Of a DNA stretch of 64,000 nucleotides, positions 40,676 through 56,586 are shown piece after piece. The notes below the pieces were generated by a model. It was not told where the DNA came from and searched no databases. It saw only the letters and a program-made list of their open reading frames with translations. The position numbers were made by a program, and so were the translations under genes. Every line of letters begins with the position of its first letter. The stretch's first letter is position 1. The stretch spans positions 1,364,001-1,428,000 of the forward strand of contig NZ_CP101114.1 of NCBI RefSeq assembly GCF_024297065.1, in the 5' to 3' direction. Origin of the DNA: Bartonella harrusi. GTDB lineage: Bacteria > Pseudomonadota > Alphaproteobacteria > Rhizobiales > Rhizobiaceae.

Positions 40676-40864
40676 CTCGTACCTAAGCATCACAGCACAC
40701 ACTCTTCTGCAGAGAACACACTGAACTTTCAATCAAAAAATCTCTCTTATCACTGAAAATACCGCAAAAACAGTATCACACCGCTTTTAATTTTTCCTCA
40801 CACATAAAATAAAGAGCCTATATTTTCCCCCTGCAACACTTGATAAAAATTAAAACCATAAAAA

Positions 40865-40892
40865 GCCTGACTGAGGATTTCCTCAGTCAGGC
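40865..40892 (-). terminator. Rho-independent terminator of the candidate small RNA
   Basis: GCCTGACTGAGG and CCTCAGTCAGGC pair perfectly over 12 bp around a four-base loop. On the minus strand TTTTTATGGTTTT follows. No protein gene ends just upstream of it, which points to an RNA gene. Confidence 0.85.
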
Positions 40893-40982
40893 CAGACAAT
40901 CTAAGGGATCCACGCGGGGGGGGGGAGGAGGTTCCCTGATCGTCTTCTCGCATCAGCTATTAAGATAGCCGATGCAATATTT
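40865..40982 (-). ncRNA. Candidate CCUCCUCCC-loop small RNA (cuckoo / alpha-r14-like)
   Basis: Three consecutive hairpins are seen on the minus strand. SL1 (40975-40950): GCATCGGCTAT with ATAGCTGATGC, 11 bp with one G-U, loop CTTA. SL2 (40945-40894): AGACGATCAGGGAACC with GGATCCCTTAGATTGTCT, and its loop begins with CCTCCTCCC and runs into ten C. SL3 (40892-40865): a GC-rich 12-bp terminator followed by TTTTTATGG. About 120 nt. Alphaproteobacterial cuckoo/alpha-r14 RNAs have this order and an exposed CCUCCUCCC anti-Shine-Dalgarno motif. In those RNAs SL1 usually carries the motif too, which it does not here. The promoter is not resolved; the 5' end is approximate. Confidence 0.65.
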
Positions 40983-40985
40983 ATG

Positions 40986-42075
40986 CTATGGAATAAAACG
41001 TTCTAAACAACAAGAAATTCTTATCACCTTCCATGAAAAAAAACAAAAAAAAATTATAAATTGTTTAAAAATGGAAAAATTTAGGCAAAAAATACTCAAA
41101 ATGATCCAATTTGAAGCAATTTTATTTCGCGGGATATCAATGAGAATCGACGATCATCATAATGCTCATTTTTTCAGAAGAAGCCTCAATTTGTATAAAC
41201 TTTTCTTATAAACGGCACAGTGCATAAAAATAAGAATCACTTGTTCAAAAGCTCTTACCAAAACAGTAAAAACATAAGCCTTTCCCGTACATAATTTATT
41301 TTGAATCATCCACTATCAGGATTTTACGTAATGGCAGATTATTTATAGCTAACAATGTAATGACAATGTATTATGATAACGACAATGAAGGATATGATTT
41401 TCTTCCTATCCCCACGCCTTAAACTCTCTTGCAAAGTGATAAAAGCGCAATTCCTGTATGTAAATTTTATCCCTCATTCTCTTTAACGAGACTCCACAGT
41501 ACCTTCTTTTTACTGTTCGCATAACTGTAATAAATTCATACCCCACACAAAAAGCTGTATGTTGCGACACTAGCTCATTCATATCCTTGTTCAACATCAC
41601 CTCTAAAATTCTCATCTAACCTCTAGACACCATCGGTAAATGATATAGAATATGCTCTTTTTGGATCATTATCCTCATAATGAGTAAAGTAACAAAACAA
41701 CAACATCGTTATATTTACCAGCCCCTCAAATATTGCCACTATTTTTGTATTTTAAAAAGCGATGCTTTTTTCTCAAATGTTTTCTATTCGAACATTGATC
41801 TCTCTTAGCAATATGTAAAGAACCATTTTAGAGATTGTATCAAAAGATTTGAAACAAGAAATCTTGTCTTCAAGACTCTCATTCAAATTGCAAAACAACA
41901 AATTGCCACCCATAAAGTTAATCTATTGATTCATCAATAAATACTGTATCAATAATCAACACGCAAAAGACACAATGCGGAACCCCAAAACGATAGCTCT
42001 TCAAAGTTTACTAAAATTCTCTCTTCACACTTCTGAGTGCAAAAAGCCAAAAATAAAGCATGTTAATAAACATAA
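40986..42075. other. AT-rich intergenic region
   Basis: About 1.1 kb. An open frame at 41406-41615 (minus, 69 aa, basic) and one at 40972-41211 (plus) have no ribosome binding site or recognisable family. The part next to 40986 should contain the promoter of the candidate small RNA. Confidence 0.45.
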
Positions 42076-55425: not shown

Positions 55426-56586
55426 ACTATGTAGTCTTATCAATTGCTGCATGAAGCCATCAAGATCACTGGCTTTCACGCAGAAGACTTTATAATATTG
55501 GGGGGGGGATTCAGACGATGATTCCTTTATTTATCTTTGTAAATTTTTATCTGTCCATATACAGGAAATTGTTTTTTATACACTCACTGTCTAAAAATTC
55601 CTAGTACTAGCTGATTTCACAAAGATCTTTTCCCTAATTAATCAGAACCGATAAATACAGATTTTTGTAACAAACGGCCTATTTTAGCTGTCGCAACATC
55701 CAACACTATAATTTGAAACGATTATAACAATGGACATACCTATGATACCGCCAAGCCTCCTTATCTAAAAAAGATGGCAAGCAACACTGGTTACATAAAT
55801 AAATATCACCCGTATCATCATCTTCTACTTTCTGTAAATAACAACATCTAATCCATGGCAGAAACCTTCCCACTCAGACATAGAAATTTCTTCTAACTTT
55901 TTTCATTTTCCAAAAGAGAACTTTTTTACTCATAAAATCAGGAATATTTTTTCTTTTTGGAATAAAAAATCTATGAAAAAGCAAAATAATAAAATTAGAC
56001 CACATTACCTCTCAAGACAAGTTATCCAAAAACTTATTAAATAAAAAATATACCCTATCTTTAGCAAACACCCCATACGCAGAAAAATAATGCACCAAAA
56101 TATCTATTGTAAACAAACATAAGAAACAACAAAATGTGCAAATCAAAATGTTTTACAAAATAAAATAATATAATCGGAATGAAATATCTAAACTTCTCCA
56201 CATTCCCATAATTCGCTTGTGTGAATGCTTCTATAGTACAAAAAAAAGAATCATAACCAATAACAAGTTGACATCTCTCAACGTCAACTATTCTTAAATA
56301 TGATATCTTCTAATAGACCTACTATCACACGCAAGACAATGCTTTCGATATCGTTCACTCCTTTGAGAAATCACCCTATAATTTTATTTCCACTATCGAT
56401 TGCTTTTATAAACAGTAGCACAAATATCAAAGCCAAGAAAAATATTGGACACATAAGTTTTGCATGAATTGTTTAATACCCACTCGCCTTACCCCTCTTC
56501 AAAAAAATATTTCAAAAACGACACGATATGCTTTTTGTTCACACGCATCAAAAAGAACACATCTTTGAAAAGGTACAAGTCTCTTA
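55426..56586. other. Intergenic region behind the SIMPL pair
   Basis: About 1.16 kb. The first 300 bases (to about 55720) resemble the spacer between the two SIMPL genes (54300-54570), as blocks such as TGTAAATTTTTATCTGTC and a TTAATCAG-GATAA stretch, so the duplication included the trailer. A G9 run lies at 55500-55508. The rest is AT-rich with no gene seen; a frame at 56460-56825 is antisense to the rpoD end. Confidence 0.55.

Follow-up and report, generated by a model that had tools for sequence, protein, structure and literature searches.

The systems that most resemble the small RNA described here are the ar14 and cuckoo RNAs and two further RNAs with C-rich loops. NfeR1, an ar14 RNA, is described as an Hfq-independent RNA of 123 nt whose hairpins all bear the motif (PMC10746234), and in the cuckoo family each hairpin loop carries CCUCCUCCC (PMC3927594). 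CcsR-like RNAs often adjoin the gene of a short DUF1127 protein, an arrangement that is frequent and not obligatory (PMC10253847). In Bartonella bacilliformis the sRNA BbsR14 has anti-Shine-Dalgarno loops (PMC7717549). The mycobacterial sRNA B11 represses a target with a six-G tract in its leader, and this repression is abolished when both C-rich loops are mutated (PMC10470900). Helicobacter pylori RepG uses a single C/U-rich loop to pair with homopolymeric G tracts, and the length of the repeat sets the outcome (PMC8295292).

Here we describe a predicted sRNA gene on the minus strand of the window, by which we mean the whole stretch of 64,000 nucleotides of the Bartonella harrusi genome (G000) that was analysed. 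The sRNA resembles ar14/NfeR1 in its length near 123 nt, its three hairpins, its terminator and its C-rich loop. It differs from them in that the motif is found in one loop only, where it is not conserved, and in that the genus has separate ar14 orthologs. With the cuckoo RNAs (SmelA075/SmelA099, CcsR) the sRNA shares hairpin modules, a C-rich loop and a terminator; unlike them, it carries the motif in one of three loops at most. Unlike CcsR, it was not found to adjoin a DUF1127-type frame: 10 of the 18 frames of at least 25 aa over 40733-42075 were scanned and gave no DUF1127 match at E <= 1.

The 6C/B11 RNAs likewise have a C-run in a hairpin loop, but B11 has two C-rich loops as compared with one in the sRNA and comes from an unrelated phylum; no 6C family was among the Rfam matches listed for the sRNA locus. 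RepG also has a single loop, rich in C/U. There, however, it is the loop of the terminator that pairs and the variable repeat lies in the target, whereas in the sRNA the C-rich loop tops the middle hairpin and the sRNA itself contains the variable run. BbsR14 is, like the sRNA, a Bartonella sRNA, but its two published loop sequences are present in an ar14 ortholog (L165) and absent from the sRNA.

Results

Structure of the sRNA gene

An earlier note on this DNA had proposed a structured small RNA gene without annotation, consisting of three consecutive stem-loops on the minus strand with a terminator as the last one. The features which we assign to the locus are collected in Table 1; the 5' end of the predicted transcript was placed with the help of the promoter-like element. 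The region 40977-40860 (minus strand) folds with a minimum free energy of -61.9 kcal/mol, as compared with a mean of -31.07 (sd 3.57) for 200 dinucleotide shuffles (z -8.64), and none of the 200 shuffles folded as well. The terminator SL3 was also picked up by a pattern scan, which found one terminator (mean in shuffles 0.4). Fold and terminator scan thus agree with the three stem-loops proposed before, and the existence of a structured RNA gene is supported by the fold together with the compensatory changes given below.

Table 1. Features of the sRNA locus, in window positions
Feature	Position	Strand	Basis
sRNA gene (transcript predicted at about 119 nt)	40860..40978	-	Fold, genus-wide conservation, compensatory changes
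SL1, 13 pairs in the window's copy	40948..40977	-	Predicted fold and genus alignment
SL2, C-rich 18-nt apical loop 40929-40912	40894..40945	-	Predicted fold and genus alignment
SL3, 13-pair hairpin 40893-40864 followed by a T tail; intrinsic terminator	40860..40893	-	Fold and pattern scan
Uninterrupted C10 in the SL2 loop, proposed seed	40916..40925	-	Sequence and loop counts
CCTCCTCCC, anti-Shine-Dalgarno-like, lineage-specific	40923..40931	-	Pattern search; overlaps start of C10
Promoter-like element CTTG-N20-CATAGC	40985..41014	-	Pattern CTTG-N20-YAWA across copies
AT-rich block, possibly a regulator site, ahead of the promoter-like element	41067..41090	-	Alignment, by eye

In the SL2 loop region CCUCCU is followed by C10 and then by GCGUGG. 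Since the first CC of the motif is predicted to close the loop by pairing with GG, the exposed loop would consist chiefly of the C-run. SL1 had been noted before to lack the motif, and this holds for the genus: CCTCC was found outside the SL2 loop in 0/61 copies, SL3 being likewise free of CCTCC in all 61.

A lack of compensatory stem changes in related genomes had been named in advance as one of the results that would speak against the gene; such changes were found. In the 38-row alignment used for counting, from which the structure itself had been derived so that the counts are favoured, 97.8% of the cells are paired, both sides are changed in 12/37 pairs (shuffles 8.4 +/- 1.4, as high in 4/500), and 59 cells show changes on both sides, as compared with 19.6 +/- 3.4 in shuffled and 5 to 14 in slid controls. 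Further pair types were only slightly above the shuffles (41 versus 38.7, as high in 55/500). In the genus alignment both-side changes occur in four of the nine modelled pairs of SL1, where 95.8% of the cells are paired, and in two of the 15 modelled pairs of SL2, where six pairs are invariant and 98.9% of the cells are paired. SL3 has both-side changes in six of its 13 modelled pairs.

Distribution of the sRNA in Bartonella

The sRNA was found in 61/61 same-genus genomes searched, in 48 of them by blastn (the window's own genome included) and in 13 by R1, a covariance model based on 38 of the 48 blastn-found copies. The 13 Bartonella genomes missed by blastn, which we refer to as deep-branching, all gave R1 matches (best E 8.7e-10 to 5.2e-5). 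An exact 19-nt pattern taken from the core of the sRNA matched 19 stretches, and all of them are from Bartonella (one genome per species). Two R1 matches were obtained in the window's genome, one being the sRNA locus and the other its own terminator on the opposite strand; consequently, the sRNA is single-copy in this genome.

Outside the genus, matches to R1 were found in 13/196 genomes at E <= 1 under stricter filters. The best one (L073, 38.2 bits, G136:C1:89165-89278) has three hairpins, the middle one with a C-rich loop, and comes from a same-family genome of 1.4 Mb that has no ar14 match. It is not convincing as a homolog of the sRNA beyond Bartonella. Another of these matches, L081, has a stretch of loop sequence in common with the sRNA and probably represents a cuckoo-type hairpin. 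No match was obtained with R1 (default filters) around EttA in 13 outgroup stretches, nor for the sRNA in a plasmid collection. In the passages compared from two articles on Bartonella sRNAs (PMC7717549, PMC5387305) the locus is unnamed, and it may be one of the 153 unnamed candidates in PMC7717549.

Within the SL2 loop, five C's followed by GC (C5GC) are present in 48/48 blastn-found and 13/13 deep-branching copies (61/61) and six C's followed by GC (C6GC) in 46/48 and 13/13 (59/61). The distribution of the motif is different. CCUCCUCCC occurs in 35/61 copies and in none of the 13 deep-branching ones; CCTCCTCCC was found in 35/48 and CCTCC in 42/48 blastn-found copies, and both in 0/13 deep-branching copies. 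Judged from these sequences, the feature common to all copies is the C-run followed by GC, and the anti-Shine-Dalgarno motif is restricted to particular lineages. The loop motif, taken previously as the mark of the cuckoo type, is missing in 26/61 copies, among them 13/13 deep-branching ones.

The longest C-run comprises 9 to 14 residues in 45/48 blastn-found copies and 6 or 7 in the other three; in the deep-branching copies it is 6 or 7 throughout (13/13). In B. vinsonii the run is 9, 10, and 11 residues long in three subspecies, respectively, and the copies L047 and L049, which are similar, differ in having 7 versus 14. These differences between close relatives could be due to slippage or to homopolymer sequencing error. 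It is a speculation of low probability that the C-run through which the sRNA would pair serves as a contingency tract and that cells may carry regulators differing in target reach; phase variation would then, again with low probability, reside in the seed of a regulator and not in a promoter or a reading frame. A coding frame at 40953-40798 was considered and is disfavoured, because the length of the C-run varies irrespective of frame; Pfam gave no match for it or for nearby small frames.

Relation to the ar14 RNAs

The gathering cut-off of the Rfam model ar14 (RF02344) is 58.8 bits. At the sRNA locus the model scores 24.0 bits (E 0.012), and no gathering-level match was obtained. Among same-family genomes 183/199 have ar14 matches over the cut-off, many of them with several copies; 9/14 control genomes gave matches at E <= 10, none of which was over the cut-off.

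We scanned 29 Bartonella genomes (from the 61, plus G227) with the ar14 model at E <= 5. A match was found in 27/29, the exceptions being G009 and G048, and in 26 of these 27 genomes the best match lies away from the sRNA locus; the remaining one is the window's own genome. The best scores away from this locus range from 22.2 bits (G036, by score only) to 87.2 bits. In seven deep-branching genomes ar14 scores 72.7 to 87.2 bits, in each case above the cut-off and elsewhere than the sRNA, and in these copies two loops carry CCTCCTCCC exactly, the third being of the CTCCTCCC type. The ar14 ortholog of the window's genome (L187, L244) is situated at G000:C2:2194089-2194198, about 790 kb from the sRNA. 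It is too eroded for the ar14 model and was found by DNA comparison, being 91% identical to the ortholog of G010. The ar14 copy of G051 (L165) contains twice the BbsR14 loop sequence given in PMC7717549, and for this reason BbsR14 is probably ar14.

In the ar14 copies of Bartonella the number of motif loops declines from three to one or two. In the copies L161, L164, and L166 the motif of SL2 is replaced by a C-run.

Of the traits of the ar14/cuckoo RNAs, adjacent hairpins with the terminator in last place are found in the sRNA. CCUCCUCCC in each hairpin loop is not found, the motif being confined to SL2 and to 35/61 copies. With a score of 24.0 versus 58.8 bits, an ar14 ortholog at another site of the genome and the motif absent from 26/61 copies, orthology to ar14/cuckoo is rejected. 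Despite its resemblance the sRNA is a different gene from ar14, and the family membership proposed in the earlier note, which the covariance score and the second gene contradict, attached the wrong name to it.

There is a small but appreciable chance that the sRNA is a strongly diverged ar14 paralog, cuckoo by descent, which has lost the motif from SL1 and SL3 and changed that of SL2. Such an origin would fit the three-hairpin layout and the length, both of which match ar14, as well as the several ar14 copies in many same-family genomes, the drift of some Bartonella ar14 orthologs to longer C-runs in SL2 and the weak ar14 scores at the sRNA locus in 3/29 genomes, namely 24.0 bits in G000, 30.9 bits (E 5.5e-4) in G003, and 18.2 bits in G036. 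In the other 26/29 Bartonella genomes scanned, however, there is no ar14 match at the locus at E <= 5. The deepest-branching copies, which would be expected to be nearest to the ancestor, are without CCUCC in any loop (0/13), and among the matches listed those of R1 outside the genus (13/196) do not overlap with the ar14 places. The question of a paralog concerns the origin of the sRNA more than its action, since the pairing of loop and target would remain.

Other CCTCCTCCC sites in G000 were considered as sister RNAs and rejected on their overall number, 18 sites versus 17 for a backwards control pattern. A four-fold cluster of CCTCCTCCC in this genome is an intergenic minisatellite. Intergenic C/T-rich minisatellites were observed at L066 (G000:C2 about 1763.0-1764.4 kb), with units of about 364 bp, and at L240 (G000:C2 1766-1785 kb), with units of 133, 291, 357, 381, and 387 bp.

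Start sites and G tracts

Start regions were surveyed in about 464 kb of G000 (the window and 20 stretches, 247 start regions) and in 400 kb of G053 (241 start regions), the starts being called crudely as the first ATG of frames of at least 150 aa. Complements of the conserved seed were counted at positions -30 to -1: GCGGG was found in 3/247 (G000) and 6/241 (G053) regions and GGGGG in 5/247 and 1/241, respectively, neither with an excess over other regions, which speaks against a wide reach. AGGAG does show an excess in start regions (25 in G000 and 18 in G053). Duplexes below -13 kcal/mol with the window's loop are predicted for 35 start versus 21 control regions of 247 in G000, a modest excess, and for 43 versus 34 in G053; this result speaks for a wide reach. 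For the deep-branching loop no excess was seen, with 19 start versus 17 control regions in G000 and 18 versus 20 of 241 in G053.

Eighteen poly-G tracts were examined in G000. One is the sRNA locus, and 10/17 others are inside a sense frame of at least 60 aa and not in leaders. The survey and the placement of the poly-G tracts make specific targets likelier than general targets.

G tracts of 8 to 11 residues occur in G000, for example at 55500-55508 of the window; several are in reading frames and are possible contingency loci. Two G tracts, at C2:673035 and C2:882781, have identical surroundings.

A true ar14/cuckoo regulator, blocking the ribosome-binding sites of many mRNAs by means of CCUCCUCCC, would explain the motif in the window's copy and in 35/61 copies overall and also the 35 versus 21 regions counted for the window's loop. 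Nevertheless we regard it as improbable, with the ar14 score far below the cut-off, an ar14 ortholog present in addition to the sRNA, a motif that occupies one of three loops and is missing from 13/13 deep-branching copies, and no DUF1127-type frame found alongside.

Alternatively, the C-run loop could act as a decoy that titrates an RNA-binding protein rather than pairing with mRNAs. A long, open and near-invariant loop suits protein binding as well as pairing, and its complements are not enriched at start sites; we know of no C-run-binding protein of Bartonella, though, which counts against a decoy. All C-rich-loop precedents compared act by pairing, and we consider a decoy highly improbable.

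Upstream region and gene neighbourhood

The pattern CTTG-N20-YAWA, which was picked post hoc, is present in 55/61 copies, which are related to one another (44/48 blastn-found, 11/13 deep-branching; shuffles mean 0.6, maximum 3), and is located 84 to 97 nt ahead of C5GC. The promoter-like element was not among the listings of a general sigma-70 scan. When the upstream regions of the 48 blastn-found copies are aligned, the AT-rich block further upstream appears conserved by eye. On the other side of the gene, similarity stops shortly past the terminator in most blastn-found relatives.

The neighbourhood was compared for 55 loci (48 blastn-found and 7 of the 13 deep-branching), the flanks being often about 1.5 kb long. 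EttA is encoded upstream on the same strand in 20/20 loci where it was found (35 without a match), and an ArsR-type methyltransferase upstream on the same strand in 30/30 (25 without a match). The gene of an SLT transglycosylase follows downstream, with the same orientation, in 26/26 (29 without a match). Other arrangements of these three genes were seen in 0 of 55 loci. Many of the missing matches result from the short flanks, and others may be genuine absences. In 5/7 deep-branching loci both EttA and the methyltransferase are upstream, and neither is at L184 and L186. This common neighbourhood supports the view that the sRNA sits at one shared locus across the genus.

A gene for 144 aa follows downstream. 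It is on the same strand in 48/55 loci, inverted in 5/55 and not found in 2/55; in 6/7 deep-branching loci it gives a weak match (22-30%) at a distance of 1.1 to 3.2 kb. At the loci with the inverted gene (L039, L040, L042, L045, and L046) the order of EttA, sRNA, and SLT is unchanged.

That the sRNA is a cis-acting leader or attenuator of this 144-aa gene, as its usual position on the same strand could imply, is scarcely credible, for the sRNA is kept where the gene is inverted, not found or 1.1-3.2 kb off, and it ends with a strong terminator.

Discussion

The explanation which we favour, and hold to be probable though by no means certain, is that of a single-copy, Bartonella-wide, independently transcribed and trans-acting sRNA with the C-run of SL2 as seed for G-rich target stretches. 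Its own promoter and terminator would give rise to a transcript of about 119 nt. SL1 and SL3 would be mainly structural, and in the loop of SL2 an unpaired run of at least five C's, followed by GC, would serve as the putative seed. Its partners may be G-rich stretches that lie within or close to the 5' portion of a restricted number of mRNAs, and the pairing would change the translation or stability of these targets. CCUCCUCCC would represent an elaborated form of the loop that is confined to some Bartonella. By analogy, we infer that the C-run loop acts like that of mycobacterial 6C/B11 or Helicobacter RepG.

The sRNA adds an apparent genus-wide RNA regulator to Bartonella, whose members are pathogens and insect symbionts and in which few sRNAs have been studied. 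The analysis also corrects a tempting misfiling of this RNA under ar14 and directs attention to the true ar14 of Bartonella, which is probably the published BbsR14. If it is true that the C-run is a seed of variable length, phase variation within a regulatory RNA would be directly testable.
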